Assembly (NCBI GenBank): GCA_017451525.1
Contig: JAFTOD010000002.1
Coordinates: forward strand, 254,964 to 318,963
From: Paludibacteraceae bacterium
GTDB taxonomy: Bacteria; Bacteroidota; Bacteroidia; Bacteroidales; Paludibacteraceae
Reading direction: 5' to 3'
DNA length: 64,000 nt
Below, in pieces: positions 26,195 through 43,934 of the stretch (position 1 is its first letter; every line of letters starts with the position of its first letter). Position numbers and translations under genes: made by a program. Under the pieces are notes generated by a model. It worked only from the letters and a program-made list of their open reading frames with translations, did not search any database and had not been told where the DNA came from.

Positions 26195-27655
26195 ATGGTT
26201 GAGCCATCCTTGAAAAATAAAGCAGTAAATGGAGTCGGCTGGAGTGCAGCGGACGCGATATTGGGACAAGGAGTCACATTCCTTGTAGGTATTGTTTTAG
26301 CACGCTTATTATCTCCGACTGAATATGGTTTGATTGGAATCATATCCATATTCATTGTTGTACTTAACGGAGTGGTTGACAGCGGTTTCTCTAATGCTAT
26401 CATTCGCAAGCAAGATACCACTAATGATGATTACAACACGATGTTCTTTACGAATATGGGATTTAGTCTATTATTGTATGTCGGATTATATTTTTCGGCC
26501 CCTGCGATAGCTACTTTTTTCGGCAGAGAAGAGTTAGTCGCCTTAACACGAGCAATGGGCACAATATTGATAATCAATGCATTATCCATAACCCAAGTCA
26601 CAATATTAACTAAAAAGGTAGATTTCAAGACAAAGACAAAAGCATCGCTGACATCAGCTGTTATTAGCGGTTTCATTGGTATTATCTTAGCATATTGTGG
26701 CTATGGAGTATGGTCTTTGGTGGCGCAACAAATCACCAAACAACTATTATATACACTATGCCTCTGGGTACTGAACAAATGGGTTCCTACATTAAAATTT
26801 TCTTTACAAAGTTTTAAATACATGTGGGGATTCGGTTGGAAAATGATGGTATCAGGTTTACTAAATAACATATGGAATCAGCTATATCAAGTAGTGGTCG
26901 GCAAGTTTTACTCTCCAGCCACTCTTGGTCAGTATTCTCGTTCCAAAGAATATGCCAACATTTTGTCTGCAAATTTTACTGCGATTATTCAACGTGTCAG
27001 TTATCCAATTTTGTCAGAATTACAAGGTAATCCAGAACGAATGGTTAATGGATACAGAAAGATTATCAAGTTGACAATGTTTGTAACTGCCATATCAATG
27101 ATTTTCATGGGGGCAGTAGCAGAACCTTTGATCTACTGTTTAATTGGACCACAATGGAAAGAGGCTGCCACCTATCTACCTTTAATATGTATTTCTATGT
27201 CCCTTTATCCCATTCATGCAATAAACTTGAACATGCTGCAAGTGCAAGGACGGAGTGACATCTTTTTGATTCTTGAAATTATCAAAAAAATCATCGCTGT
27301 TGGTCCTATATGCTTAGGTATATTTGTAGGCATACAATGGATGTTAATTGGTTCGATTGTTACGGGTATCGTATCATTCTTCTTAAATTCCTATTACACA
27401 GGAAAGAAATTACATTATACTTCGTGGATGCAATTACGCGATATTGCACCTTCCTATGCAATTGCATTGGTGATTGCATTATCTGTATACTTTTTTAAAT
27501 TATTACCCTTATCTTATTTTGCCATATTACCTATCCAAATAGTAGTTGGTACATGTGTTGGTCTGCTATTGTGTAAGATATGTAACCTTCCTGAATACAA
27601 TGATTTAAAACGAATTATTATAGAAAAAGTTAATGGATATAAAAAACATAAGTAA
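26195..27655 (+). CDS. Wzx-type lipopolysaccharide flippase
   Basis: A 486-residue integral membrane protein with about 12-14 hydrophobic segments, of the MOP superfamily polysaccharide-transporter group (WzxC-like). N-terminal GVGWSAADAILGQGVTFLVG and LLSPTEYGLIGIISIF near 40-55 are the family opening. It moves undecaprenyl-linked repeat units across the inner membrane. It lies 3 bases after rfbD and 2 bases before a DegT aminotransferase gene. From about here to 43.3 kb the DNA is visibly AT-richer than the flanks, as often in horizontally exchanged glycan loci. Confidence 0.9.
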   Translation: MVEPSLKNKAVNGVGWSAADAILGQGVTFLVGIVLARLLSPTEYGLIGIISIFIVVLNGVVDSGFSNAIIRKQDTTNDDYNTMFFTNMGFSLLLYVGLYFSAPAIATFFGREELVALTRAMGTILIINALSITQVTILTKKVDFKTKTKASLTSAVISGFIGIILAYCGYGVWSLVAQQITKQLLYTLCLWVLNKWVPTLKFSLQSFKYMWGFGWKMMVSGLLNNIWNQLYQVVVGKFYSPATLGQYSRSKEYANILSANFTAIIQRVSYPILSELQGNPERMVNGYRKIIKLTMFVTAISMIFMGAVAEPLIYCLIGPQWKEAATYLPLICISMSLYPIHAINLNMLQVQGRSDIFLILEIIKKIIAVGPICLGIFVGIQWMLIGSIVTGIVSFFLNSYYTGKKLHYTSWMQLRDIAPSYAIALVIALSVYFFKLLPLSYFAILPIQIVVGTCVGLLLCKICNLPEYNDLKRIIIEKVNGYKKHK

Positions 27656-27657
27656 TT

Positions 27658-28767
27658 ATGAATAAAGATATTATTACAGTTACCAGTCCGTTGTTACCAG
27701 ATCTGAATGATTTTCATGCAGAACTGCAAAAAATATGGGATAGTAAGTGGATTACAAATAACGGTGCATACCACAAAAAATTAGAAGGAGCTCTCGCAGA
27801 GTATTTGGGCGTGCCTTATGTGAGTTTATTTACAAATGGAACACTACCTCTAATTACGGCACTACAAGCATTGCGTATCACGGGCGAAGTAATTACTACA
27901 CCATATAGTTTTGTAGCCACAACTCACGCATTATGGTGGAATGGAATAAAACCCGTTTTTGTGGATATTGACCCTGCCACTGGAAATATCGATCCCGATA
28001 AAGTAGAGGCAGCGATTACTCCAAAGACGACAGCCATCATGCCTGTACACGTATATGGGAAACCCTGTGATACACAACGTATTCAAGAGATTGCAGATCG
28101 CTATGGTTTAAAAGTAATTTATGATGCCGCACATGCGTTTGGGGTAAAAGTAAATGGTGAGAGTATTTTGAATGCAGGAGACATGAGCACACTGAGTTTT
28201 CATGCCACTAAAGTATATAACACCATTGAAGGTGGTGCGATGATAATGCACGATGAGAAAATAAAACAACGTATTGATTACTTGAAGAACTTTGGCTTTG
28301 CCAATGAGACTACCATCATGGGACCTGGTATCAACTCTAAGATGGATGAAGTGCGTGCCGCATACGGATTGTTGACTCTCAAGCAAGTGGATAGTGCGAT
28401 TGAAGCACGTCATCAAGTAGCAGTAGCTTATCGAAACGCATTGAGAGAGGTCGAAGGAATAACATTCTTTGATGATATGCCAGGTGTCACTCATAACTAC
28501 AGTTATTTTCCCATCTTTGTGGATACTAAGAAATACGGCATGAGTCGTGATGAATTATACTTCCACATGAAGTCACAAAATGTATATGGCAGAAGGTATT
28601 TTTATCCTCTCATAAGCGAGTTCTCTACCTATCGAGGTTTGGAGAGTGCAAAGCCAGAGAATCTGCCTAAAGCACATCAAATGGCAAATAGCGTTATTTG
28701 TTTGCCAATGCATCACGCACTAACAGAAAATGACATACAACGTACTATTGAATGCATTATTAAGTAA
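27658..28767 (+). CDS. DegT/DnrJ/EryC1 family sugar aminotransferase
   Basis: PLP-dependent enzyme, 369 residues, that usually transaminates a nucleotide-linked keto-sugar. Marks: TNGTLPLITAL near 59-69, TTPYSFVATTHA near 80 (cofactor phosphate side), IYDAAHAFG near 154-162 (D-x-A-H), and the Schiff-base lysine in SFHATKVYNTIEGG near 186. Resembles VioA/FdtB-type transaminases making 4- or 3-amino-6-deoxy sugars; the substrate cannot be fixed from sequence. Stands directly after wzx and 5 bases before the first ATP-grasp gene, so it may act on a sugar that is then coupled to an amino acid. Confidence 0.9.
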   Translation: MNKDIITVTSPLLPDLNDFHAELQKIWDSKWITNNGAYHKKLEGALAEYLGVPYVSLFTNGTLPLITALQALRITGEVITTPYSFVATTHALWWNGIKPVFVDIDPATGNIDPDKVEAAITPKTTAIMPVHVYGKPCDTQRIQEIADRYGLKVIYDAAHAFGVKVNGESILNAGDMSTLSFHATKVYNTIEGGAMIMHDEKIKQRIDYLKNFGFANETTIMGPGINSKMDEVRAAYGLLTLKQVDSAIEARHQVAVAYRNALREVEGITFFDDMPGVTHNYSYFPIFVDTKKYGMSRDELYFHMKSQNVYGRRYFYPLISEFSTYRGLESAKPENLPKAHQMANSVICLPMHHALTENDIQRTIECIIK

Positions 28768-28772
28768 ATGAC

Positions 28773-29978
28773 ATGAGCAAACAAAAGAAAATAATGCTAT
28801 TAGGTGGTATTCACTACCTACTGCCAGTGATTAAAGCTGCGCATGAGCAAGGTTATTATGTAATAACTGCTGACTATCTACCAGAGAACATTGCTCATCG
28901 GTATTCGGACGAATATTGCAATGTTAATATTGTGGATAAAGAAGCTGTATTGCAAGCAGCAAGAGAGAGAGAGATTGATGGAATCATTTCTTTTGGTGTA
29001 GATCCTGGAGTTGTTGCAGCAGCGTATGTACAAGAAAAAATGAGCTTACCTCAAATGGGACCATACGAATCAGTACGTATTCTCCAAAACAAAGATTTAT
29101 TCCGCAAATTCCTAAAAGACAACTATTTTAACGTTCCTGAAGCCAGAAGTTACACAAAGAAAGAAGTTGCACTATCCGATACCATTTGGTTAAAATTCCC
29201 AATGATTGTCAAACCTACCGATTCTGCAGGAAGCAAAGGAGTTACTAGGATTGACAACATTGAAGAATATGCTGCCGCATTGGATTACGCATTTGACAAG
29301 TCAATCTCAGGAACGGTAATCGTAGAGGAGTTTGTAGATAAAGTGGGGTGCAGTTCTGACACGGATAGTTTCTTGCTTAACGGAGAGCTTAAGTTCGTTT
29401 CATTTAATGCTCAGCATTTCGATGAGAATGCAGCCAATCCTTATACTCCAGCAGCCTACAGTTGGCCATCCACATTCATAGAACACGAAGAATATCTTAA
29501 GACTGAACTTCAACGTCTGTTGACATTATTAAACATGCAAACTTCGGTGTTTAATATTGAAACACGTGTCTCAAGTAATGGAAAGCCATATATTATGGAG
29601 TGTACTCCACGTGGTGGCGGAAATAGATTGTGCGAGATGTTGCGCTATGCAACAGGTGTAGATTTAATCACGGCCCAAGTTCGCGCTGCCGTTGGTGATA
29701 CGGTAAATGGTATTGAGCAAAAACCATATGATGGACATTGGGCAGAGATTATTTTGCACGCAGACAGAGACGGGGAGTTCAAGGATTTAAAAATATCTCC
29801 AGATATTCCCGCCCAAATTATAGAACAAGATTTATGGATTAATACAGGTGATATCGTACATGCATTTCATGGAGCTAATGATGCTATCGGTACATTGGTA
29901 TTGAGGTTTGAATGTGAAGAGAATCTTAAAGAGGTGCTATATCATCAAAAGAATTGGATTGAAGTAATTGTAAAATGA
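28773..29978 (+). CDS. ATP-grasp ligase (first of two)
   Basis: A 401-residue ATP-grasp enzyme of the carbamoyl-phosphate-synthase-like group. N-terminal Rossmann-like domain (IMLLGGIHYLLPVI), ATP-grasp domain with MIVKPTDSAGSKGV near 143-156, VIVEEFVDKVG near 187, and FNIETR followed by PYIMECTPRGGGNRLCEM near 262-290 (Mg/ATP ligands). Such enzymes form amide bonds through an acyl-phosphate; amino-acid or sugar-acid substrates are typical. No recognisable carrier domain. Its stop overlaps the next start (ATGA at 29975), so it is tightly coupled to the DegT-like protein. The real substrate is unknown. Confidence 0.85.
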   Translation: MSKQKKIMLLGGIHYLLPVIKAAHEQGYYVITADYLPENIAHRYSDEYCNVNIVDKEAVLQAAREREIDGIISFGVDPGVVAAAYVQEKMSLPQMGPYESVRILQNKDLFRKFLKDNYFNVPEARSYTKKEVALSDTIWLKFPMIVKPTDSAGSKGVTRIDNIEEYAAALDYAFDKSISGTVIVEEFVDKVGCSSDTDSFLLNGELKFVSFNAQHFDENAANPYTPAAYSWPSTFIEHEEYLKTELQRLLTLLNMQTSVFNIETRVSSNGKPYIMECTPRGGGNRLCEMLRYATGVDLITAQVRAAVGDTVNGIEQKPYDGHWAEIILHADRDGEFKDLKISPDIPAQIIEQDLWINTGDIVHAFHGANDAIGTLVLRFECEENLKEVLYHQKNWIEVIVK

Positions 29979-30922
29979 TTGAGGCAATAGGTGGATATCC
30001 AGAATTAGAATTGCGCAAAGGCGAACATTATCATAAAGACGCATTACGGCTCAATACTGCTCGAAACTGCTTCGAGTATGTACTGCGTGCGCGCGGATAC
30101 ACGAAGGTGTACATACCCTACTACACCTGCGAAGTAATGCTCGAACCGCTCATGAAATGCAGTGTAGAGTATGAGTTTTATCATATTAATGAGCAATTAG
30201 AACCAGTTGAGACTATTCGGTTGAAAACATCAGAAGCATTTCTCTACACCAACTACTATGGATTAAAGCAACAATGTGTAGCTCGATTGGCACAAACCTA
30301 TGGCAAGCAACTAATTGTAGATAATGCACAAGCTTTTTTTGCCTCTCCTATTGAAGGTATTGATACCTTTTATTCTGCTCGTAAATTCTTTGGAGTTGCC
30401 GATGGAGCATATCTATATACAGATCAACTATTGGATATGGAACTAGAGCAAGATCAGTCTTATGAGCGTATGTCTCATCTATTAATCCGTGCTGACATTG
30501 GCGCAGAAGCGGGATATAATGAGTTTAGAAAAAATGATGACTCGCTAATTGGTGAACCAATAAAAAAGATGTCACAATTGACAGAAAAAATATTATGCTC
30601 TATAGACTATGAAGCATGTAAGGCGGTACGAAGGAGGAATTATCAGGAATATGAGGATTCGCTAGGAAAGATAAACAAAATACAAGTACTTCTACAACAA
30701 AATGCTATTCCATTAGCATACCCATTCCAAACGGATTCCATTGATTTGCGTAAATTATTGATCCAACATCGCATATATGTACCTCATTACTGGCCTAACG
30801 TGATTTACAAAACTGATTTTCAGACAGAAGAACATATTTCCAATACTCTTTTACCGCTCATTTGCGATCAAAGATACGAAAAAAAAGATATACTACGAAT
30901 TTTAGAAATTATTAACATATGA
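29975..30922 (+). CDS. Divergent DegT-like PLP-fold protein
   Basis: A 315-residue protein that is probably a shortened member of the DegT aminotransferase fold. Reasons: IPYYTCEVMLEPL near 48-60 (like the start of the large domain), LIVDNAQAFF near 110-118 (matching the D-x-A-H/Q element) and FYSARKFFGVADGAYLY near 126-142, where K in SARKFFG sits at the Schiff-base position. The usual glycine-rich T-G-T near the cofactor phosphate is not obvious. It may be an active transaminase of unusual substrate, or a partner subunit. Overlaps both ATP-grasp genes (ATGA at 29975 and 30919), so all three should be made together. Confidence 0.6.
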   Translation: MIEAIGGYPELELRKGEHYHKDALRLNTARNCFEYVLRARGYTKVYIPYYTCEVMLEPLMKCSVEYEFYHINEQLEPVETIRLKTSEAFLYTNYYGLKQQCVARLAQTYGKQLIVDNAQAFFASPIEGIDTFYSARKFFGVADGAYLYTDQLLDMELEQDQSYERMSHLLIRADIGAEAGYNEFRKNDDSLIGEPIKKMSQLTEKILCSIDYEACKAVRRRNYQEYEDSLGKINKIQVLLQQNAIPLAYPFQTDSIDLRKLLIQHRIYVPHYWPNVIYKTDFQTEEHISNTLLPLICDQRYEKKDILRILEIINI

Positions 30923-32208
30923 AGACACAAGATTTAAAAGGTAAAAAGCTCCTAGTCTTAGGAGGAACAGCTCTGGTTTGTGACATTGTAGCCAAAGCCA
31001 AAGACATGGGTATTTACACTATCGTTACGGATTGGAATGATCCATCTGCATCACCTGCAAAAAAAATTGCAGATGAATACTGGATGGAAAGTATTTCTAA
31101 CACAACAAAACTTGCACAATTAATCAAAGAGAATAATATAGATGGCATTATAACAAACTACACTGATTCTTACTTACCTTTTTACGCACGCCTTTGTGAA
31201 TCAACAGGGTTACCATGCCTCGCTACCGAAAAACAAATGGAAGTTATCAGCAACAAAGAACTTTCTAAAAAGTTATGTATAAAGCATGGTATCTCTGTAT
31301 CTAAGCGATATGAAGTTTCGTCTGTTGAAGACATTGATAATCTCACTGACGTAAGATATCCAGTATTAACTAAGCCCGTTGACAATAGCGGTCAACGAGG
31401 CATTTACGTTTGTCTTGATAAAGACGAATTGAAAAGGCTCTACACGACATCCCTACAATTCTCTCAATCAAAAAATGTTATGATTGAGGAATATGTTCAA
31501 GGTGACTACACAGTAATGTTCTACACAATCCAAAATGGAGTAGTAACCCTCTCTACAATGTCAGACAAACCTGTCATTGGAGAGTTTGTTAATAATTTGC
31601 CAAAACTTCCACAAGGGTACATTCTACCATCTAAATACGTAAATTTATGTAAAGAAATTATGCTTCCTAAAGTACAGGCCCTTGTTAAGGATTTGAACAT
31701 TCAAAATGGAATTATTGGGATAGAAGCAGTTGTAAAAGATGATGATATATTCGTCTTTGAAATGCAATTTCGACTAGGAGGCATGAAGCACCATAACTTC
31801 GTATTAAAAGAAAACAAGATGGATTTATTAGCGATGCTAGTTCGTTTTGCCATAACTGGTCAATTTAGCGGATGGGATATTTCTGAATACGATAATCCAA
31901 ACTTTAAAAATGTATATTGTTCGTTAAACATTCTTATTCAACCAGATACAGTATCAAAAATCGAAGGTTTGGAAATAGCCCTATCACTCCCACAAGTAAC
32001 AAATTTTACACAAATGATGGAGATTGGAGAGTCCGTCAAACTACCTGGAACTGTTCAGCAAATTCTTTTTAAATTTTCATTGGTAGAAAATAATTTGCAT
32101 AATCTAAAGCAAACTATTTTAACCATATACAACACTCTTAAAGTATATAATAATCAAGGAGAAAATATTATTATAAATCCCACATTCCTTGATGAGTTGG
32201 ACGCATAA
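30919..32208 (+). CDS. ATP-grasp ligase (second)
   Basis: A 429-residue ATP-grasp enzyme, distinct from the first. LLVLGGTALVCDIVAKAKDMG opens the preATP-grasp domain; YPVLTKPVDNSGQRGIY near 150-166 binds ATP; VMIEEYVQGDYTVMFY near 188-203; and IGIEAVV followed by IFVFEMQFRLGGMKHH near 270-292 carries the metal ligands. PurD/PurK-like in outline, but position in a glycan locus points to ligation of an amino acid or other carboxylate to a sugar or carrier. The start overlaps the preceding stop; the 3' end overlaps the opening frame of the next gene. Confidence 0.85.
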   Translation: MKTQDLKGKKLLVLGGTALVCDIVAKAKDMGIYTIVTDWNDPSASPAKKIADEYWMESISNTTKLAQLIKENNIDGIITNYTDSYLPFYARLCESTGLPCLATEKQMEVISNKELSKKLCIKHGISVSKRYEVSSVEDIDNLTDVRYPVLTKPVDNSGQRGIYVCLDKDELKRLYTTSLQFSQSKNVMIEEYVQGDYTVMFYTIQNGVVTLSTMSDKPVIGEFVNNLPKLPQGYILPSKYVNLCKEIMLPKVQALVKDLNIQNGIIGIEAVVKDDDIFVFEMQFRLGGMKHHNFVLKENKMDLLAMLVRFAITGQFSGWDISEYDNPNFKNVYCSLNILIQPDTVSKIEGLEIALSLPQVTNFTQMMEIGESVKLPGTVQQILFKFSLVENNLHNLKQTILTIYNTLKVYNNQGENIIINPTFLDELDA

Positions 32209-32236: not shown

Positions 32237-33313
32237 ATGAAATTTGCAATTATTGGAGCAGGAAATGGTGGACAAGCCATCGCTGGTTATTTAGGAAATA
32301 TTGGGCACGACGTTTCAATATACGATATTGACGTTAATCGTATTGATAAAATACAGCAAAGAGGAGGTATACAATTACAGGGGAGATTACAAGGTTTTGG
32401 TAGAATAAATTGTGCTACCACAAAATTGTCTGAAACGGTACACCATGCAGAAGTCATCATGATTACTACCACAGCTAATGCCCATCAAACAGTAGCAGAA
32501 AATATCGCCCCATATTTGGAAGAAGGGCAAGTTATCATACTCAATCCAGGGAGAACATGTGGTGCATTAGTATTCAAACAGACTCTTGATAAAATGCAAG
32601 TTAATGTACGTTATTTCTTAGCAGAAGCACAAACATTGATATATGCTTGTCGTATAATAGAAGATGGGATAGTAAACATTATCGGCATTAAAGACGAAGT
32701 ATATTTAGCAGGACTACCATCATGTGACACACAACATATTTTGAATATCATCCGCCCCATATACCCTAGCTTTAAAGAAGTACCAAACGTATTGCATACT
32801 AGTCTGGAAAATATTGGTGCCATTTTCCATCCATGCATTTGCCTGATGAATGCGGCAACGATAGAACGTCAAGACGAATTTTGGTTTTATCGCGACATGA
32901 CAGAAAGAGTAGCCGATTTTATTGAGCAATGTGACAATGAGAGATTAGCAGTAGGTAGAGCATACGGAATAGACCTTGTTGGTGTAAAAGACTGGATTAA
33001 AGTTGCTTATAAAGACACGATTGGAGAAACTTTATGTGAACGAATGAAAAATAATCCTGCCTATCACGACATTAAAGCACCTGGTTCTATCTTTACACGC
33101 CAATTAACCGAGGATATCCCCACTGGTGTTCTTCCTATTGTTGAGTTAGGGCAAGTAGCAGGAATAGCTACTCCATTGTTATCATCCATTGTTGCCATCT
33201 CACAAGCACTGCTCAATATGGATTTCTACACAAGAGGAAGAACATTAGCGAACATGGGATTGTCTAATAAAACTCCAAAGCAAATTATAGAATATATCGA
33301 ATTAGGATTTTAG
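32237..33313 (+). CDS. Octopine/nopaline (opine) dehydrogenase family protein
   Basis: About 358 residues. N-terminal NAD(P)-binding Rossmann domain with FAIIGAGNGGQAIAGYLG and an acidic strand end SIYDID near 30. The C-terminal helical domain has the opine-dehydrogenase pattern (NIGAIFHPCICLMNAATIE near 195-212, with the conserved H, then YRDMTERVADFIEQCD). Opine dehydrogenases reductively couple an amino acid's amino group to a 2-keto acid. The frame opens at 32189, but ATG 32237 fits the Rossmann start and leaves a 28-base gap after the ATP-grasp gene. Here it may modify the amino acid made or altered by the B12 protein next door; that is inference. Confidence 0.8.
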   Translation: MKFAIIGAGNGGQAIAGYLGNIGHDVSIYDIDVNRIDKIQQRGGIQLQGRLQGFGRINCATTKLSETVHHAEVIMITTTANAHQTVAENIAPYLEEGQVIILNPGRTCGALVFKQTLDKMQVNVRYFLAEAQTLIYACRIIEDGIVNIIGIKDEVYLAGLPSCDTQHILNIIRPIYPSFKEVPNVLHTSLENIGAIFHPCICLMNAATIERQDEFWFYRDMTERVADFIEQCDNERLAVGRAYGIDLVGVKDWIKVAYKDTIGETLCERMKNNPAYHDIKAPGSIFTRQLTEDIPTGVLPIVELGQVAGIATPLLSSIVAISQALLNMDFYTRGRTLANMGLSNKTPKQIIEYIELGF

Positions 33314-33316
33314 TAT

Positions 33317-35164
33317 ATGGAAACAGATAAAATTTTTGGATTTGTTAAGCCATTAGTAGATGTACATACCATGGGTCTACACACCATGGCCAATTTGGTG
33401 CGTGAGTGCGGTTATCAAGCTATTATTGCATCTCCAGAAATAAACTCTGCACTTGAGCAAATACAGAAAATAAACAATTACAGTCTTGTCAAAGCGTGGA
33501 TTATAAACAACCATATAACACATTTGTGTTTTAGCTATAGATTGGATCCGATGGATGCATGTAATCATTTCATGCAATTATATGAAAGACTCCTTGGAGA
33601 CCACATGGCTTCTGCAACAGGAGGAATTATTCAAGCATTCTCTTTTGCAGGACTACCAGAAGCATGCCAGTTGATAGCCGAGAAAACCAAAAATCAGGTT
33701 ATACTATTTCCCGGCAGCGAAACGCCTATTGAATCGTTAGAGCGATACAATATTCCTCCAGAAAAAATACAAAAAGGTTTACAGACGGATAACGAATATG
33801 ATAATTTGCGTATAGCATTCGCAAAAAAGATTATTGAGTCAGAATCGTATAAGAATGTTATTCCACAAGATCACTATGGCTATTCCACATGCGGAACAGA
33901 CAACGATACATACGTAGACCGACTTAATTATGCAAAAGCAAAAGGAGCGCTTCCTATTATCCGCACACACTCTGGTCCATATAATCCAAACAGGATGGAG
34001 GCAATAAAGGAATACAATTCATGGGTAGAAGATTTAGCCAAATCTAAACTATTGGATATATTGTCCATTGGATCTTCACAGTTGACACAATCAAATTTTG
34101 GTGAAAATTGGGAAGGTTTACAGAACGGAGGAGGTGTACCCATTAACTCTCCATTGGAATATCGCGTAATACACGAAAAAGCCAAACCCATGTTGACACG
34201 CACTTATTCTGGCACAAAAGACGTACCAACGTTAGCAAAGATTCATGAAGAGAGTTTAAATATTTCCTGGCATGCATTATCATTCTGGTGGTTTAATGAG
34301 TTAGATGGACGCGGTAAAAACACGTTATTAGAGAATCTCAAAGAACACTTTGAGGCAGTACGCTATATCATCTCAACAGGGAAACCTGTTGAACCAAATG
34401 TCCCACATCACTTTGCTTTTAGGGGAGCAGATGATATCACCTATATCATCAGTGGATTTTTAGCAGCAAAAGCATGTAAACTACTCGGTGTACGCCATTT
34501 GATTCTACAAAACATGCTAAATACTCCGAAGAACACTATCGGGATTCAAGATTTAGCGAAAGGTCGTGCTATGCTACGTTTAATCAAAGAATTGGAAGAC
34601 CATTCATTCTCTGTAAGTTTACAAACCAGAGTCGGTCTAGATTATTTCTCCACTGATTTAGAGCAGGCAAAAGTTCAACTATCTGCAGCAACCTGCTTAA
34701 TGGATGATTTGGAACCTAACAACCCAAATAGTCCAGAGATTGTACATGTCGTTAATTATAGCGAAGCAGTACGTTTGGCCACACCTGATATCATTTGCGA
34801 AAGCATCAAAATCACATTGGAAACACTCAAAGAATACAGGACAGCTAAAATGCTCGGTAGAATTCCTAATATGGAGCATGACTACGAAACTAATTACCGA
34901 ACAGAGCAACTATACACTGAAGCAAAAGAAGCGATAGATTTCTTGGAAAACAACATCCCTAATTTATATACACCTGAGGGATTCTACTATATATTTGCTC
35001 ATGGTTTTTTACCAGTCCCTTATTTAATGGATTATGAAAGCAAATATCCCAAAGCCAAAATGTGGCAAACTGCATTTAAGAATGGTGGAATCGTAGTAGT
35101 TGACAACGATAATAAACCTATATATACTCTACAACGATATAAAAAAATAATGCAATCACTATGA
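33317..35164 (+). CDS. Fused B12-dependent mutase resembling glutamate mutase (GlmS-like plus GlmE-like)
   Basis: A 615-residue protein. The N terminus is a cobalamin-binding domain: D15-V-H17-T-M-G20 matches DxHxxG, H17 being the expected cobalt ligand, with SYRL (73-76) at the SxL position, GG at 102-103 and PGSETP at 132-137 near the GlmS-type end. The rest (about 150-570) looks like the GlmE barrel of methylaspartate mutase; the stretch IVHVVNYSEAVRLATPDIICESIK near 490-512 parallels GlmE's late barrel strands. Glutamate mutase rearranges glutamate to 3-methylaspartate. A single-chain form in a glycan locus beside an opine dehydrogenase and ATP-grasp ligases suggests it makes a branched amino acid for surface-sugar decoration. 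Domain call fairly firm, reaction inferred. Confidence 0.7.
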   Translation: METDKIFGFVKPLVDVHTMGLHTMANLVRECGYQAIIASPEINSALEQIQKINNYSLVKAWIINNHITHLCFSYRLDPMDACNHFMQLYERLLGDHMASATGGIIQAFSFAGLPEACQLIAEKTKNQVILFPGSETPIESLERYNIPPEKIQKGLQTDNEYDNLRIAFAKKIIESESYKNVIPQDHYGYSTCGTDNDTYVDRLNYAKAKGALPIIRTHSGPYNPNRMEAIKEYNSWVEDLAKSKLLDILSIGSSQLTQSNFGENWEGLQNGGGVPINSPLEYRVIHEKAKPMLTRTYSGTKDVPTLAKIHEESLNISWHALSFWWFNELDGRGKNTLLENLKEHFEAVRYIISTGKPVEPNVPHHFAFRGADDITYIISGFLAAKACKLLGVRHLILQNMLNTPKNTIGIQDLAKGRAMLRLIKELEDHSFSVSLQTRVGLDYFSTDLEQAKVQLSAATCLMDDLEPNNPNSPEIVHVVNYSEAVRLATPDIICESIKITLETLKEYRTAKMLGRIPNMEHDYETNYRTEQLYTEAKEAIDFLENNIPNLYTPEGFYYIFAHGFLPVPYLMDYESKYPKAKMWQTAFKNGGIVVVDNDNKPIYTLQRYKKIMQSL

Positions 35165-36096
35165 ATAAAGAGCCCAAATTCACAGATACTCAGAAGCCAT
35201 TGGTAGCAATTCACTGCATGGTTTACAATCATGCTCTTTATTTACGAGAGTGCTTCGAAGGATTTGTTATGCAACAAACTAGTTTTCCATTCGTTGCGAT
35301 TGTACATGATGATGCATCTACAGATAATTCAGCAGAAATCATTCGTGAATATGAAGCAAAATACCCACATATCTTCAAGCCCATTTATCAAATAGAGAAC
35401 CAACACTCAAAACAAGGAGTTTCGGTTGTACGCTTGATTAATGAGGCCATCCTGAAAACAGGAGCAAAATACATTGCTATGTGTGAAGGAGATGATTATT
35501 GGACAGATCCTATGAAACTACAAAGACAAGTTGATTTTTTAGAAGAAAATCCAGACTATAGCTTATCTGCAGAAAATGCGACTCGTCTATATATTGGATC
35601 TAATAAAACGGAATTATTTTCGACATTGCCTAGTAGGGATATTACAATAAGCGAAATGATTATAACGCGCCAATTTGCGACAGCATCCGTGGTTTATAGA
35701 AGTGGCATAAATATTCCTTCGTCTGTAAAAAGGATTTACGATACATTACTCTGGTGTATTATAGCACAATATGGCAAGGTTCATTATGAAAACATTATCT
35801 CCTCTATATATAGAATTGGAGCTGGTGTCACGCAAGTCGACAAAGTAGCATGGGCACATAAGATAATAGAGTTAAATAACTTGTTGTACGCAACTATAAA
35901 AATAGACAAAAAAACATGTGTTCTACACGACAAAGAAATGCTTGCCATATTATTAGCAGGAATACGCGAGGCATTACGCAAAAAAAAATACGCTGATGTT
36001 CGCTCATTAGGAGTCTATATATTAACAATAGGAATTGTTCCATGGATATTACTTATAAAACAAGTAGTTGACTATAAAATATTTCAACGTAGATAA
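35161..36096 (+). CDS. Glycosyltransferase family 2
   Basis: A GT-A fold transferase of 311 residues. VAIHCMVYNHALYLRECFEG opens the nucleotide-sugar domain, VHDDASTDNSAEII near 50-63 holds the DD metal/UDP site, and CEGDDYWTDPMKLQRQVDFLEENP near 105-128 holds the second acidic motif (GDDYW). Cytoplasmic face, adding one sugar to the lipid-linked repeat. Start overlaps the mutase stop (ATGA at 35161). The donor and acceptor are unknown. Confidence 0.9.
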   Translation: MNKEPKFTDTQKPLVAIHCMVYNHALYLRECFEGFVMQQTSFPFVAIVHDDASTDNSAEIIREYEAKYPHIFKPIYQIENQHSKQGVSVVRLINEAILKTGAKYIAMCEGDDYWTDPMKLQRQVDFLEENPDYSLSAENATRLYIGSNKTELFSTLPSRDITISEMIITRQFATASVVYRSGINIPSSVKRIYDTLLWCIIAQYGKVHYENIISSIYRIGAGVTQVDKVAWAHKIIELNNLLYATIKIDKKTCVLHDKEMLAILLAGIREALRKKKYADVRSLGVYILTIGIVPWILLIKQVVDYKIFQRR

Positions 36097-36101
36097 TTGT
36101 T

Positions 36102-37274
36102 ATGATGTTTCAACTACAGACCATATTAGTATATACCCTTTTGGCTATAATAATGTATATCTTTGCTCAAAAAGCATCTCTCACGCAAAGAGCAAGTTAT
36201 CATATAGTTCCGATCATCGCGTTTATCTTGGTATTTGGACTTAGATATAGTGTTGGTATTGATTGGGAAAACTACAGAGCAATCTATGAAGAAGAACTCT
36301 ATGGGTTGTCCTTTTCAGAAATGTTAGAAACGCGATATGAGGTGGGATTCTTGTTTATAATATATTTATGCCACCTATTCCAATTACCAACGTATATGCT
36401 ATTTGTATGTATAGCAGCCATTCAAATAATATTCCTATATCTTGCTCTTAAAGAAGAACACGGGATTTTACCATATGTCTATTTAGCTTTTATCCTGTCT
36501 GGAATAGCAATACAAGGTTTTTGCAACGTGATGAGACAAGATATCGCATTCTGTATATTTCTATATGCTTTAAAATATGTTAAGAAAGATAAAATTATAA
36601 AGTATTTCCTCTTATGCGCGCTAGCCTTGTGTTTCCACAAATCAGCAGTCATATTATTCCCAATATGTTTTTTGTGGGTAAGAAAAAATAGTTTCTTTAG
36701 TAATCAAAGCATACAATGCATCCTATTTTTAGCATGCGTTTTCTTACCATTTTTAAATCCTGTAGAATATATATTAAACATATCAAACGACTTAATAGTA
36801 GCAGTGGGTTATGAAGACTATATAGAAAGTACACTTGATTTAACGACTAATAATAAAATCGGACTAACTCGAATTATAATGATAATAGCACACCTTACTA
36901 TTATACTGAATAGTAAGAACATTAAAGCTTTTTACGACAATAACATGGTGAATAAAATATACGACTTATATTTTATTGGTATATGTTGTTACTTCCTATT
37001 CTTAGGTAATATGATGTTTGGACGAATAACATTGTATTTTACCAATATTGCATTTATTATGAATGGATATGCATTGCACTATCTAATACAACAATCTAAA
37101 ACAGTAAAACATTTGGCTATCTTGAGTATAATAAGTCTAACACTATTGACCAGTTATGCAAGTATGTTGTACAATTGTACAAAAAACACAGATGCATATG
37201 TATCTTATTTTCAAGAAGAATTACATGTTATTAAAGATAATCAACGTAGCAACATGTTTGATACTCGTCCATAA
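36102..37274 (+). CDS. EpsG/Wzy-type polysaccharide polymerase
   Basis: A 390-residue polytopic membrane protein with about ten hydrophobic segments, of the EpsG family. RYSVGIDWENYRAIYEE near 48-64 is the characteristic loop after the second helix, followed by the EVGFLFI region. In Wzx/Wzy systems such proteins join repeat units on the periplasmic side. Only one polymerase candidate is in the locus, and a Wzx is present at 26195, so a Wzx/Wzy pathway is expected, with the BY-kinase at the window start as a possible co-polymerase. Confidence 0.85.
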   Translation: MMFQLQTILVYTLLAIIMYIFAQKASLTQRASYHIVPIIAFILVFGLRYSVGIDWENYRAIYEEELYGLSFSEMLETRYEVGFLFIIYLCHLFQLPTYMLFVCIAAIQIIFLYLALKEEHGILPYVYLAFILSGIAIQGFCNVMRQDIAFCIFLYALKYVKKDKIIKYFLLCALALCFHKSAVILFPICFLWVRKNSFFSNQSIQCILFLACVFLPFLNPVEYILNISNDLIVAVGYEDYIESTLDLTTNNKIGLTRIIMIIAHLTIILNSKNIKAFYDNNMVNKIYDLYFIGICCYFLFLGNMMFGRITLYFTNIAFIMNGYALHYLIQQSKTVKHLAILSIISLTLLTSYASMLYNCTKNTDAYVSYFQEELHVIKDNQRSNMFDTRP

Positions 37275-39420: not shown

Positions 39421-39666
39421 ATGAATTCTAATCTTATTAAATATAATGGTATATTTTGTGATGTATTCTGTGTTACAGATCCATCACAGTTACCACTTTT
39501 ACAACTAAAAGTTAGTCAACAATGGGATTCTGTAGGACATATTGGATTAATCTCTGCATTAGAAGAAGCTTTTGATATAGATATTGAGCCAGATGATATG
39601 TTTGAAATCACGTCATATTTGATAGGTATAGAAGTCTTAAAGGATAAATATAATATTGATCTTTAA
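39421..39666 (+). CDS. Acyl carrier protein 2
   Basis: An 81-residue carrier protein. QQWDSVGHIGLISALEEAFDIDI near 33-55 contains the DSxxH/L attachment motif (serine in WDSVGH) and a good helix 2; the region DDMFEITSYLIGIEVLKDK forms the last helices. Two successive carriers suggest separate loading and extension stations or a heterogeneous pair. The last base of its TAA stop is the first base of the ligase ATG (39666). Confidence 0.85.
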   Translation: MNSNLIKYNGIFCDVFCVTDPSQLPLLQLKVSQQWDSVGHIGLISALEEAFDIDIEPDDMFEITSYLIGIEVLKDKYNIDL

Positions 39667-41072
39667 TGTTTAATTTTTCTGCACATATAGACAATATTGC
39701 TTGCGTAACACCATTAGGAGAAAAACTCACTTATGGTGAATTAGAGCAACGCAGCTATGAATTAAGTCAGCATATTAGACTAGGCAGTCTATCGTTCATA
39801 CTTTGTTCCAACACAATATCTTCTTTAGTTGGTTATGTTGCAGCAACAAAGTTGCATAGTGCATGCCTTCTACTTAGTGCAGAAACACCATTAGACTCAT
39901 TATTAAACCTAATTGAAACTTATCAACCACAACAAATATGGCTTCCTAGTGAATATTGCACAAGGTATCAATTTGAACTATACACTAGAATCTTTAGTGA
40001 TCACGAATATTCCTTACTCCAAAACAACAACGATATATACACAGCACTCCCAAAAGAGTTAAAAGTCCTTTTAACTACCTCAGGAAGTACTGGCTCACCA
40101 AAATTGGTACGCCTTTCAGAAACAAACATAATGCATAACGCGGCATCAATATGCGAATATTTGCAGATTGATTCATCAGAACGGCCAATTACATCGTTAC
40201 CAATGCACTATTCATATGGGTTATCAATTATAAATAGTCATTTAGTAGCAGGGGCCACATTATTACTAACCAATGCGTCCTATATAGAAAAAACTTTTTG
40301 GGAGTTTGCAGCAAATGAAAAAGCCACGTCATTTGCTGGTGTACCATATACATATGAAATTCTAAAAAAACTGAAATTCTTCCATAGAGATTTACCCTAT
40401 CTAAAAACATTAACACAAGCTGGAGGAAAATTAAGTAAGGAATTGATTGAGTATTTTGTTACCAACTCTATTGCACATTCTAAACGCTTCATCGTTATGT
40501 ATGGACAAACAGAAGCAACGGCACGAATGAGCTATGTTCCTGAATATGCTTCAATACGTAAAGTTGGCTCAATTGGAATCCCTATCCCAAATGGTACGTT
40601 CAAAATTTTTCAAGACGGAATGGAGGTTCTCGATTCTAATCAATCAGGTGAACTCGTATATTATGGTACAAATGTTTCATTGGGATATGCGGAATGCTTA
40701 GATGATCTTTACTTAGGAGATGTGAACAATGGAATACTATATACAGGAGACATTGCATACAAAGACGAAGATGGTTTCTTCTATATTGTAGGAAGACTAA
40801 AGCGATTTTTAAAATTATTTGGAAACCGCATCAGTTTAGATTATACAGAATCATTACTAAAAGGAAGATATAATGGAGATTATGTGTGCGTCGGTACAGA
40901 TAACAAGATGATTATTTATACAGATAACTTACAGCCAAATTATTCTGACGTCATCAAATATATTTGTGAGTTCACACATATTCAACATAGTGCATTTGAA
41001 ATTAGACACATAGAACGTATTCCACGTTCTGCATCAGGAAAAATATTGTATCATCAACTATTAAATGAATAA
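39666..41072 (+). CDS. AMP-dependent acyl/amino-acid ligase, carrier-protein loading
   Basis: A 468-residue ANL-superfamily adenylating enzyme. LLTTSGSTGSPKLVRLSE near 136-153 is the phosphate loop, YGQTEATARM near 279, LYTGDIAYKDEDG near 358, IVGRLKRFLKLFGNRIS near 373, and PRSASGKILYH near 453 with the catalytic lysine. Shorter than usual acyl-CoA synthetases. With two neighbouring ACPs it likely adenylates a short acid and loads it onto a carrier. The acid cannot be named from sequence. Confidence 0.88.
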   Translation: MFNFSAHIDNIACVTPLGEKLTYGELEQRSYELSQHIRLGSLSFILCSNTISSLVGYVAATKLHSACLLLSAETPLDSLLNLIETYQPQQIWLPSEYCTRYQFELYTRIFSDHEYSLLQNNNDIYTALPKELKVLLTTSGSTGSPKLVRLSETNIMHNAASICEYLQIDSSERPITSLPMHYSYGLSIINSHLVAGATLLLTNASYIEKTFWEFAANEKATSFAGVPYTYEILKKLKFFHRDLPYLKTLTQAGGKLSKELIEYFVTNSIAHSKRFIVMYGQTEATARMSYVPEYASIRKVGSIGIPIPNGTFKIFQDGMEVLDSNQSGELVYYGTNVSLGYAECLDDLYLGDVNNGILYTGDIAYKDEDGFFYIVGRLKRFLKLFGNRISLDYTESLLKGRYNGDYVCVGTDNKMIIYTDNLQPNYSDVIKYICEFTHIQHSAFEIRHIERIPRSASGKILYHQLLNE

Positions 41073-41074
41073 AT

Positions 41075-42139
41075 ATGGCAGGTTTTAATATTGATAATAT
41101 ATCCATTCGTGGTATTGTTTCATGTACCCCAAAAACTATTGAGGAAAACATCAACTATCCTATATTTCAAGAGGGGGAAGCAGAAAAAGTCATTGCTTCT
41201 ACTGGTATTGAAAGAAGACGTGTAGCAGATAACACCACTACCGCTGGTGATTTATGCTACCATGCAGCCCACCACCTCATTAAACAGTTAAATTGGGAAA
41301 AGGAAAGTATTGATTGTATTATTTTTGTAAGTCAAACTCCCGATTACAAATTACCAGCAACATCCTGCATTATTCAAGGGAAACTAGGGTTACCTGTGCA
41401 TTGTTTTGCAATGGATATTAGTTATGGGTGTCCAGGATGGGTGTATGGATTAAGCGTTATAGCATCTATGATTTCTGCAGGAAATCTCAAACGAGGTTTA
41501 TTATTAGTAGGTGATACTCCCACAAAATTTAAAAACAGAAATGATAAAACCTCGTGGCCTCTGTTCGGTGATGCAGGATCTGCTACTGCAATTGAATTTG
41601 ACAATACTGCAAAACCAATGTACTTTAACCTACAAACTGACGGAAGTTCGCATCAAGCAATCATCATAACAGATGGAGGTGCACGTAATCCTATAACAAT
41701 GGAATCATTACAGGAAAAACAAATTGAACCAGGAATAGCCCGAAGAGCTATAGATAGTAATATGGATGGTTTAGCGGTATTCCAATTTGGTATAAAAAGA
41801 GGACCTTCTATCACACAACAATTATTAGAAGAAACTAATAACACGGTAGATGATGTTGATGTATTTGTTTTTCATCAAGCGAATCAATACATGAATGAAA
41901 AAATTCGTAAAAAATTACATATTGACTCTAATAAAGTTCCCTATAGTCTTAAAGATTATGGGAATACTAGTTGCGTTACTATCCCACTAACGATGACAGT
42001 AGCGTGTGAAAATTATGATTTAATGAACAAAAATAATACTATAGTAGCGACTGCATTTGGGGTTGGTTTATCATGGGGTAGCGTATTAATTCATCAAGCT
42101 CCTTTAAAATATTTAGCACATATTGATTATGAAGGATAA
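41075..42139 (+). CDS. Ketoacyl-ACP synthase III (FabH-like)
   Basis: A 354-residue thiolase-fold enzyme. The full Cys-His-Asn triad is visible: C in ISYGCPGWVYGL near 119, H in FVFHQANQYMNEKI near 264, N in DYGNTSCVTIPL near 295. KAS III condenses an acyl starter with malonyl-ACP. With the ligase, ACPs and SDR next to it, it could build a short 3-keto then 3-hydroxy acyl chain. The stop lies inside the first codons of the SDR gene (overlap near 42129-42139). An intact triad argues for an active condensing enzyme and against an acyltransferase-only relative. Confidence 0.9.
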   Translation: MAGFNIDNISIRGIVSCTPKTIEENINYPIFQEGEAEKVIASTGIERRRVADNTTTAGDLCYHAAHHLIKQLNWEKESIDCIIFVSQTPDYKLPATSCIIQGKLGLPVHCFAMDISYGCPGWVYGLSVIASMISAGNLKRGLLLVGDTPTKFKNRNDKTSWPLFGDAGSATAIEFDNTAKPMYFNLQTDGSSHQAIIITDGGARNPITMESLQEKQIEPGIARRAIDSNMDGLAVFQFGIKRGPSITQQLLEETNNTVDDVDVFVFHQANQYMNEKIRKKLHIDSNKVPYSLKDYGNTSCVTIPLTMTVACENYDLMNKNNTIVATAFGVGLSWGSVLIHQAPLKYLAHIDYEG

Positions 42140-42881
42140 TCCATTTTCTTTGTCTGGAAAAACAATTCTTATTACGGGAGCAGCTTCGGGTATTGGAAAA
42201 TCAGTATCCATTGTTGCATCAACACTAGGCGCAACATTAATTCTTGTAGATATCAATAATGAGAATCTACAACTGCTCGTAAAAGAGTTGAATAATAACA
42301 AACACGTTGCATATTGTCTTGACTTGACAAATTCGACAGCTACCACTGATTATATTAAGGAAAATTTTCCGTTACTGGACGGTATCGTACATTGTGCAGG
42401 AGTAGGCATTACTCTTCCTTTCAAGTTCTGTAATGAGAATGAATTAAGAAGAATTATGGATATCAACTTCTTTGCGCCAATATTGTTAACACAACAACTC
42501 CTTAAACAGAAAAAAATCAATATAGGAGCATCTATTGTTTATATGACCTCAATAGATGGTACAGTTTGTGGACATATTGGAAATTCAATGTATGCGTCTT
42601 CAAAAGGTGCCATCATGGGATCTGTTCGTAGTCAGGCGTTGGAATTGGCACCTCGTAAAATTCGTGTAAATTGTGTTTCTCCAGCTCGCGTAAATACACC
42701 TCTCATCCATAGAGACAATATCTCTCAAGAAGAAGTTGCTGAAAATATCAAGCTTTATCCAATGAAAAGATATGCTGAACCAGAAGAAATTGCATACTAC
42801 ATAATTTACCTCTTATCTGATACAAGTACCTATACGACAGGTTCTAATCTTATCATAGATGGAGGATTTACTCTATCCTAG
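42129..42881 (+). CDS. Short-chain dehydrogenase/reductase (FabG-like)
   Basis: About 250 residues. TILITGAASGIGKSV binds the cofactor (TGxxxGIG), the catalytic S in YMTSIDG near 140 and Y/K in SMYASSKGAI near 153-157 (YxxxK) complete the active site, and YTTGSNLIIDGGFTLS closes the chain as in FabG. Likely reduces a 3-ketoacyl-ACP from the KAS III neighbour. ATG 42129 fits the family start; the frame opens two codons earlier. Overlaps the KAS III stop. Confidence 0.9.
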   Translation: MKDNPFSLSGKTILITGAASGIGKSVSIVASTLGATLILVDINNENLQLLVKELNNNKHVAYCLDLTNSTATTDYIKENFPLLDGIVHCAGVGITLPFKFCNENELRRIMDINFFAPILLTQQLLKQKKINIGASIVYMTSIDGTVCGHIGNSMYASSKGAIMGSVRSQALELAPRKIRVNCVSPARVNTPLIHRDNISQEEVAENIKLYPMKRYAEPEEIAYYIIYLLSDTSTYTTGSNLIIDGGFTLS

Positions 42882-42913: not shown

Positions 42914-43333
42914 ATGAAAATTCGAATGATATTGTGGTCCATTGCCACCAACTTATATCCTGCATTGTTGCGCAAAGTCTATAAAATGGATTTAGGCATA
43001 GGCGTGCGTATTGCGCACAAAGCACATCTAGACAAAAGCGTTAATCCAAAAGGGGTACATATAGGAGACCGGACATGGATATTAAATGGCGCATTCATCA
43101 TGGCACACGACCATTGTCGTAGTTTGCGCATAGATACATATATTGGTAAAGATTGTGTAATTGGAGTTAATGCCATTATTATGCCTGGCGTTAAGATAGG
43201 CAACGAAGTGATTATTGGTAGTGGGTCTGTAGTAACAAAAGACATTCCTGATAATTGTATTGCTGTAGGTAATCCTGCGAAAGTAATAAAAACAAACATT
43301 CAAGTTCACAACGGAAAGATACAAGATGTATAA
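42914..43333 (+). CDS. Hexapeptide-repeat acyltransferase
   Basis: A 139-residue left-handed beta-helix transferase (LbH, CatB/Maa-like). Hexapeptide turns run from about 40 to 125 with the histidine of AHDHCRS near 57 as probable active base, and the C-terminal GNPAKVIK cap. Likely O-acetylates the glycan or a precursor. It overlaps the PglC-type gene by 8 bases, so the two are coupled. A short hydrophobic N terminus may place it at the membrane. Confidence 0.85.
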   Translation: MKIRMILWSIATNLYPALLRKVYKMDLGIGVRIAHKAHLDKSVNPKGVHIGDRTWILNGAFIMAHDHCRSLRIDTYIGKDCVIGVNAIIMPGVKIGNEVIIGSGSVVTKDIPDNCIAVGNPAKVIKTNIQVHNGKIQDV

Positions 43334-43934
43334 ACATTTCTTCAAACGATTAATTGATTTTACCATTGCATTGATAGCACTATTGTGCTTATCCCCAATC
43401 TTATTGGTAGTTACCATTTGGTTGCATTTCGCCAACAAAGGAGCAGGGGCATTCTTCACACAAGAACGTCCGGGTAAAGATGCCAAAGTGTTTCGCGTCA
43501 TCAAGTTCAAGACAATGACCGATGAACGAGATGCCGATGGTAAACTATTACCTGATGCTCAACGCCTTACCAAAGTAGGAAGAATTGTTCGATCTACATC
43601 ATTAGATGAGTTGCCACAGTTATTTAACGTTCTTAAAGGTGATATGGCATTGATAGGTCCTCGTCCATTATTGGTAAAATACTTACCTCTCTATACCCCA
43701 ACACAAATGCGACGTCATGAGGTTCGTCCAGGAATCACTGGTTGGGCTCAGGTGAATGGAAGAAATGCTATCACACATACTAAGAAATTTGAATACGATG
43801 TGTGGTATGTTGATCATTTATCTTTTGCATTGGATTTGAAAATAATTTTCATGACCATTAATAATGTGCTACATCGCAAAGACATTTCTACAGAAGGACA
43901 AGCGACTGCACCTACTTTTGATGGGACAAACTAA
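43326..43934 (+). CDS. Initiating sugar-phosphate transferase (PglC/WcaJ small form)
   Basis: Monotopic phosphoglycosyl transferase, 202 residues, close to the PglC length. N-terminal re-entrant helix (FTIALIALLCLSPILLVV near 12-29), RPGKDAKVFRVIKFKTM near 48-63, the catalytic DE pair in STSLDELPQLFNVLKGDMALIGPRPL near 90-115, and the GITGWAQVNGRN motif near 136. It transfers sugar-phosphate from a UDP-sugar to undecaprenyl phosphate and starts repeat-unit assembly. With PglE- and PglF-type genes beside it, the first sugar is probably a UDP-bacillosamine-like 4-amino sugar derivative. Confidence 0.93.
   Translation: MYKHFFKRLIDFTIALIALLCLSPILLVVTIWLHFANKGAGAFFTQERPGKDAKVFRVIKFKTMTDERDADGKLLPDAQRLTKVGRIVRSTSLDELPQLFNVLKGDMALIGPRPLLVKYLPLYTPTQMRRHEVRPGITGWAQVNGRNAITHTKKFEYDVWYVDHLSFALDLKIIFMTINNVLHRKDISTEGQATAPTFDGTN

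Follow-up and report, generated by a model that had tools for sequence, protein, structure and literature searches.

A putative single-chain B12-dependent mutase encoded next to a predicted acid-specific opine dehydrogenase in a surface-glycan locus of a Paludibacteraceae bacterium

Two adjoining genes in a glycan locus

The DNA analysed here, referred to as the window, is a stretch of 64,000 nucleotides from a Paludibacteraceae bacterium of the gut (assembly GCA_017451525.1, contig JAFTOD010000002.1, positions 254,964 to 318,963). It is part of contig C1 of a 1.84-Mb genome that is 84% complete and belongs to the same genus as genome G014, the source of locus L007. The window carries a glycan locus with homologues of RmlA, RmlC and RmlD, a Wzx-type flippase, a DegT aminotransferase, two ATP-grasp ligases flanking a 315-aa protein, an opine dehydrogenase, a 615-aa protein, glycosyltransferases, an EpsG-family protein and an initiating sugar transferase. 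Our subject is the pair formed by the opine dehydrogenase (358 aa; 32237..33313) and the 615-aa protein (33317..35164), a candidate single-chain B12-dependent mutase. Their open reading frames (ORFs) lie on the plus strand, as do the window genes given below with coordinates of their own, and are separated by a 3-base gap; the initial annotation of this DNA had placed the second directly after an opine-dehydrogenase homologue, exactly as we found them. The two enzymes probably build an unusual branched amino acid, which is then linked to a sugar.

Relatives of the candidate mutase were detected in 5 of 101 near relatives of the window genome, in 5 of 395 genomes drawn from the phylum and in 5 of 196 genomes of the order that includes the Erysipelotrichaceae record L012. 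Another class of the phylum gave matches in 25 of 245 genomes (9 full length, 16 covering the N-terminal part only), and a scan of genome contigs gave six mutase loci. There is overlap between these counts, and the window's own genome is among those counted; altogether, 24 distinct genomes from Bacteroidota and Erysipelotrichales carry the gene, the groups sampled being Bacteroidota and one order of Bacillota. Searches of plasmids with the window protein and its relative from L020 gave no match, and viral contigs contained no relative of the mutase.

In all 24 genomes an opine dehydrogenase gene adjoins the mutase gene on the same strand (L012/L059, cut by a contig end, included), and it comes first in the window and in 22 of the 23 tabulated loci, L018 being the exception. 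Two trees of 22 rows, one for each protein, agree in their recent groups and place L018 and the Erysipelotrichales differently; since these placements differ and long branches were flagged, the trees do not settle whether the pair has travelled jointly.

The window dehydrogenase matches the Octopine_DH family (PF02317; E 8.1e-41, 140 bits against a cut-off of 30) and aligns over residues 3-349 with the solved N-(1-D-carboxylethyl)-L-norvaline dehydrogenase 1bg6 (E 5.9e-69). It contains the NAD-binding motif GAGNGG, and the catalytic His (ArODH position 202) is present in all 22 aligned mutase-linked enzymes. In a published study, the opine dehydrogenases that prefer aspartate and glutamate, with pyruvate as the keto acid, were found to carry Arg111 and Gly198 (ArODH numbering), and swapping this residue pair exchanged the use of phenylalanine and aspartate (PMC10787698). 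In the window enzyme the corresponding residues are R106 and G194 (numbers counted by hand on the 1bg6 alignment).

What is new is that Arg111 and Gly198 occur in all 23 readable mutase-linked dehydrogenases (the 22 aligned enzymes and that of L063) and are both missing from all 12 unlinked dehydrogenases compared, which come from near relatives; the L059/L012 enzyme shows Gly198 and is cut before Arg111. This signature ties the partner to acidic amino acids, which are the substrate class of glutamate mutase. Among the 101 near relatives, Octopine_DH gave 17 matches in 16 genomes, and the five that adjoin a mutase gene are the five best-scoring. Beside the unlinked dehydrogenases no mutase-like ORF of at least 100 aa was found, either in L090-L098 (best E 0.15) or in L099-L101 (best E 0.47); two long ORFs of L090 and L096 that match no Pfam family are weakly MATE/flippase-like. 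In the window's own genus, some unlinked dehydrogenases (L090, L093, L096) are likewise encoded among or close to genes of glycan type, so decoration by a dehydrogenase without a mutase is probably the simpler kind. Separately, unlinked dehydrogenases in L093 (8482-11291) and L098 (9743-12570) adjoin a fused nucleotidyltransferase-aminotransferase, and ORFs of similar size, matched by size alone, adjoin those of L091, L092, L094, L095, L097 and L099. This fusion and its dehydrogenase may constitute a second opine-type decoration system.

Domains of the 615-residue protein

Taken alone, the 615-aa protein gave no Pfam or NCBIfam match at E 0.1, and its two PDB matches (E 0.037 and 0.13) were chance ones; a profile of its near clade found no PDB chain at E 1. 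Domain evidence comes from its relatives. Our alignment comprises 23 mutase sequences, the window protein included, 13 from the near and 10 from a distant clade (G779, cut by a contig end, was excluded). Four distant relatives align with the window protein over its full length at 28-29% identity. All ten distant relatives match the B12-binding domain PF02310 (E 2e-10 to 5.4e-5), four of them (L020, L021, L046, L050) above the curated cut-off, and a profile of four distant relatives retrieved corrinoid proteins from the PDB, together with the glutamate mutase subunit GlmS (1be1, E 2.8e-4).

The initial annotation had read the motifs of the glutamate mutase cobalamin subunit from the window protein, and all of them were located: D15, H17, G20, SYRL (S73-L76), GG (102-103) and PGSETP. 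Their conservation is uneven. H17, the proposed axial cobalt ligand (codon 33365..33367), is invariant in the 23 aligned sequences, as are G20, S73, R75 and L76, so the motif goes beyond chance. When the pattern DxHxxG...SxL...GG was applied to the 23 sequences, His and Gly were present in all, Asp in 13, and S-Y-R-L stood at the expected SxL. D15 is kept by all 13 near sequences and by none of the 10 distant ones, which have Cys two residues before the His. The canonical distance from G to S in B12 domains is 41 residues; it is exactly so in all ten distant sequences, and is 52 residues in 11 of the 13 near sequences (those printed), which corresponds to an 11-residue insertion. The GG column of the distant clade falls on A111-G112 of the window protein, G112 being present in all 23 sequences and preceded by A, S or G, and the GG at 102-103 is therefore probably not the equivalent of the GG of B12 domains. 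Loss of H17 in homologues had been named in the initial annotation as a possible refutation, and this check came out in favour of a B12 domain. Such a domain at about residues 1-135 is, in our view, well supported by these comparisons.

A barrel at about residues 205-600 is likely rather than proven. The claim that some 450 residues resemble the GlmE barrel could not be demonstrated from the window protein alone; what sustains it is the family profile and one distant relative, L020, which matches Met_asp_mut_E (PF06368) at 20.7 bits, below the cut-off of 26.6. PF06368 was found in none of the 120 relatives of the window genome searched, nor in the window protein itself. A profile of the 23 sequences, set against 14 GlmE sequences, aligned collinearly over 338 columns, with a score of 34.0, E 0.0032 and an hhalign probability of just 9.8%. 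The controls scored lower: no more than 26.7 in 60 column shuffles, 22.3 on reversal, 20.6 with the dehydrogenase family and 16.6 with the asparagine-synthetase-like family. Within this alignment, E483 of the window protein, invariant in the 23 sequences, falls on E330 of glutamate mutase, a residue in contact with the cofactor. R216, R295, R332, R369 and R438 are likewise invariant. In glutamate mutase the substrate is held by a claw of three arginines, R66, R100 and R149, according to the accessible part of PMC9545868 (numbering checked on 1cb7). In our alignment, which is weak and has a one-residue gap beside Y297, these align with H218, Q258 and Y297, each invariant in all 23 sequences. 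The protein may work like glutamate mutase; it was not classed as one, because neither a PF06368 score above the cut-off nor the arginine claw was found. In the Erysipelotrichaceae genome G643, the single-chain enzyme coexists with a glutamate mutase E gene of the conventional kind (L065, G643:C19:10160-11476).

Locus settings and third partners

The initial annotation had connected the pair with glycan loci, and this holds for nine of them: the window, L007-L011 (L008 being from Prevotella sp. MGM1) and L022-L024. In each, an ATP-grasp gene precedes the dehydrogenase gene, either directly or with one gene between them (recognised by Pfam in the window, L007 and L010, and by BLAST similarity in the other six), and a close orthologue of the DegT protein (at least 73% identity) is present in six of the nine, window included. 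In the window, the ATP-grasp ligase directly upstream (30919..32208; PF13535, 32.4 bits, cut-off 27) is a candidate enzyme for the step that joins the product to an amine. It is preceded by the 315-aa protein (29975..30922), which matches no Pfam or NCBIfam family, and by the second ATP-grasp ligase (28773..29978; PF13535, 43.2 bits, cut-off 27). Orthologues of the 315-aa protein detected by BLAST adjoin the pair in L007 (72%) and L024 (55%), and by eye its sequence recalls the DegT-like fold dependent on pyridoxal phosphate (PLP).

Further upstream lie the DegT-type sugar aminotransferase (27658..28767; PF01041, E 4.9e-101; among NCBIfam models PLP_DesI scores best, with 315.6 bits against a cut-off of 650), whose product is probably a nucleotide-linked 4-amino-4,6-dideoxy sugar, and the Wzx-type flippase (26195..27655; PF13440, E 6.4e-86). 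On the other side, a family 2 glycosyltransferase gene (35161..36096; PF00535, E 1.7e-13) shares its first 4 bases with the end of the mutase gene, and is followed by genes of the EpsG-family protein, a likely polymerase (36102..37274; PF14897, E 8.4e-42), and of the initiating sugar transferase (43326..43934; PF02397, E 2.6e-62). Genes for an AMP-binding ligase, KAS III and a short-chain dehydrogenase occupy 39666-42881, with counterparts of about 40% identity in L007; they suggest another acyl decoration, of an exchangeable kind.

Use in glycans is not supported as a rule for all: in 15 of the 24 loci (the distant ones and those of Erysipelotrichales) nothing resembling the window's glycan genes appeared within the stretch fetched, which in some cases was just 4 to 20 kb. 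At these loci an asparagine-synthetase-like gene comes after the pair, or the pair forms part of a small operon, most of the other neighbours being unannotated. The pair does, then, occur outside glycan loci, and the literature searched offered no known pathway to account for it. In eight of the ten distant loci the mutase gene is followed by the asparagine-synthetase-like gene; the exceptions are L050, which is cut off by a contig end, and L018, where two sulfotransferase genes take its place. The third protein of L019 scores 573 with the asparagine synthase B model, above its cut-off of 499. Two of the five Erysipelotrichales genomes have a D-Ala-D-Ala-ligase-like ATP-grasp gene upstream (L060, by Pfam; L063, at 88% identity), two have an editing-type gene and one has neither. 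In total, an amide-forming enzyme is encoded near the pair in 19 of the 24 loci (ATP-grasp in 11, asparagine-synthetase-like in 8). The editing-type genes (L059 9803-10309, L061 3792-4280) start about 30 bases or less after the mutase gene and belong to the aminoacyl-tRNA-editing type (PF04073, YbaK-like, below the YbaK cut-off); such a protein could protect against mischarging by the product of the pair.

A possible branched-opine pathway, its alternatives and known systems

We tentatively propose, at a little below even chances, that an adenosylcobalamin (AdoCbl)-dependent mutase and an acid-specific opine dehydrogenase together make an N-carboxyalkyl, methyl-branched aspartate-type acid, which at the window locus is amide-linked to a 4-amino sugar. 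The 615-aa protein would be a carbon-skeleton mutase that unites in one chain the B12 domain and the barrel, which glutamate mutase has as separate subunits. The dehydrogenase, judged by its two signature residues, would reductively couple an acidic amino acid with a 2-oxo acid, pyruvate being the likeliest, and radical chemistry of the mutase would convert the glutamate skeleton into a methyl-branched one, giving for example N-(1-carboxyethyl)-3-methylaspartate. Because the claw arginines are not at the aligned positions while other nearby arginines are invariant, an order with the dehydrogenase acting first and the mutase second is slightly favoured, on the strength of a weak alignment. The changed claw suggests that the mutase substrate is not plain glutamate, and the opine is the simplest candidate. 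The neighbouring genes of the window are consistent with activation of a carboxyl group of the product and its attachment, by an ATP-grasp enzyme, to the sugar nucleotide made by DegT, for a glycan handled by Wzx and EpsG; at other loci the amide would be made by the asparagine-synthetase-like or D-Ala-D-Ala-ligase-like enzyme. The former suggests an aspartyl-type acid, that is, the product side of glutamate mutase. The unusual amino acid that was predicted initially is a likely product; its place in a surface glycan is backed by the setting of the nine glycan loci and is not supported for the family as a whole.

Several observations weigh against this proposal. None of the four near-clade proteins scanned singly, the window protein among them, matched PF02310, and nine of the ten distant relatives did not match Met_asp_mut_E at the thresholds used. 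On its own, the near-clade profile failed to find GlmE (19.5); with the distant clade by itself, the best alignment covered 20 columns at 30.8 and the long one ranked second at 27.3. The hhalign probability of the joint profile was low, as given above. Since the claw arginines are absent at the aligned positions, glutamate itself may not be the substrate. The Arg111/Gly198 specificity was established by experiment in enzymes other than the mutase-linked ones. An adenosyltransferase (PF01923 or PF02572) is present in 21 of the 22 carrying genomes examined (of 24), G093 having neither; PF01923 occurs in 91 of 101 relatives anyway, so AdoCbl supply is only compatible with the proposal. Finally, the product is predicted from the genes.

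The proposal can be widened: the 615-aa protein and its relatives would be a new single-chain AdoCbl family with an opine substrate, and the two genes a branched-opine module whose product is attached by various ligases to glycan sugars, ammonia or other amines. We consider this wider form possible and, on balance, doubtful. To our knowledge, N-carboxyalkyl amino acids are a substrate class of no B12 enzyme. In the literature searched, which lacks most subscription papers, a B12 mutase accompanied by an opine dehydrogenase is nowhere described, and no paper names both 'opine dehydrogenase' and 'glutamate mutase'.

The reverse order deserves most attention among the alternatives. Here the mutase would be a one-chain glutamate mutase converting glutamate into 3-methylaspartate, to which the dehydrogenase then adds pyruvate, so that the end product can be the same as the one favoured above. 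The glutamate-mutase-like barrel, the acidic amino acid signature of the dehydrogenase and the aspartyl-type acid expected with the asparagine-synthetase-like gene all suit this order, and the accessible part of PMC10787698 describes mODHs with the same residues that take Asp or Glu and pyruvate. However, the claw arginines are missing from the aligned positions, the conventional GlmE of G643 would make the single chain redundant there, and the dehydrogenase gene leads in 23 of the 24 loci (gene order being weak evidence). We regard this order as rather unlikely.

An improbable alternative is that the protein binds a corrinoid and is no radical mutase, being for instance a methyltransferase-type enzyme that methylates or demethylates an opine-like acid. 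The N-terminus of the distant clade has its best PDB matches in 4jgi (a putative uncharacterized protein) and the trimethylamine methyltransferase corrinoid protein 7xcn, both ahead of GlmS, L020 weakly matches the MtgC corrinoid model, and the evidence for the barrel is weak. Yet these matches are confined to the cobalamin domain, which mutases and methyltransferases have in common, whereas the barrel region matches GlmE above shuffles (in a comparison that took in no methyltransferase barrels).

Most improbable by far is that the trio of the distant loci makes a beta-lactam. Opine formation would be followed by an amine shift that yields an N-(2-carboxyethyl) amino acid, and a beta-lactam-synthetase-like enzyme would then close the ring. 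In favour of this, five of the eight asparagine-synthetase-like proteins (L020 10373-11728, L021 4964-6304, L046 9751-11085, L047 8003-9316, L048 7038-8396) resemble beta-lactam synthetase in the loss of Cys2 and of part of the glutaminase domain, and CarA and beta-lactam synthetase are among the PDB matches. Against it, the other three keep Cys2 and the full glutaminase domain, asparagine synthetases score far better than CarA (E 2.4e-44 against 2.6e-19), and known B12 amine shifts require PLP. As for the third gene itself, a beta-lactam role is disfavoured by the synthetase Glu (SGEG, TGEG or SGES) in all eight proteins, where CarA has Tyr (TGYG); we take this position to be Glu348 of asparagine synthetase and Tyr in beta-lactam synthetase, which was itself not displayed.

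The AdoCbl carbon-skeleton mutases form a small group with well-defined substrates. A family that lacks both a Pfam and an NCBIfam model and keeps one fixed partner across two phyla would add at least one pathway to this group and perhaps a reaction. The mutase-dehydrogenase pathway also makes a concrete chemical prediction for the surface glycans of some gut Bacteroidales, and if such glycans hold the acid, the supply of vitamin B12 could shape the cell surface. The order of the two steps and their substrates can be tested directly with the two purified proteins.

Known systems resemble parts of the proposed pathway. In pyrrolysine biosynthesis, a radical mutase (PylB), an ATP-grasp ligase (PylC) and a dehydrogenase (PylD) jointly make an unusual amino acid, an outline like that of the window set; PylB, however, is a radical SAM enzyme, and the window ATP-grasp ligase scores 41.9 bits with the PylC model, against a cut-off of 248.3. 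Glutamate mutase GlmES (1cb7/1ccw) has in common with the window protein the His-bearing B12 domain, a probable barrel, collinear and weakly similar, and the equivalent of E330. It differs in consisting of two chains, where the window protein is a single one with an extra stretch between the domains, in the PF06368 signal, which is below the cut-off or absent in our family, and in its methylaspartate lyase, none being recognised beside the window mutase; its claw arginines (PMC9545868) align with H218, Q258 and Y297 of the window protein. The ArODH/mODH opine dehydrogenases (PF02317; 1bg6) and the window type have the same Octopine_DH fold family, the catalytic His and the Asp of the conserved ED motif, and the acid-specific mODHs also have Arg111/Gly198; the window type is always paired with a mutase, whereas the accessible part of the account of known mODHs describes them without such a partner (PMC10787698). 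A chemical precedent is the O-antigen of Providencia alcalifaciens O35, in which, according to the accessible part of PMC10609480, alanopine on Qui4N is an opine decoration of a 4-amino sugar. As proposed for the window, an N-(1-carboxyethyl) amino acid is there amide-linked to a 4-amino-4,6-dideoxy sugar; that acid is alanine-based and needs no carbon-skeleton mutase, whereas the one predicted here would owe its branched skeleton to the B12-dependent partner.

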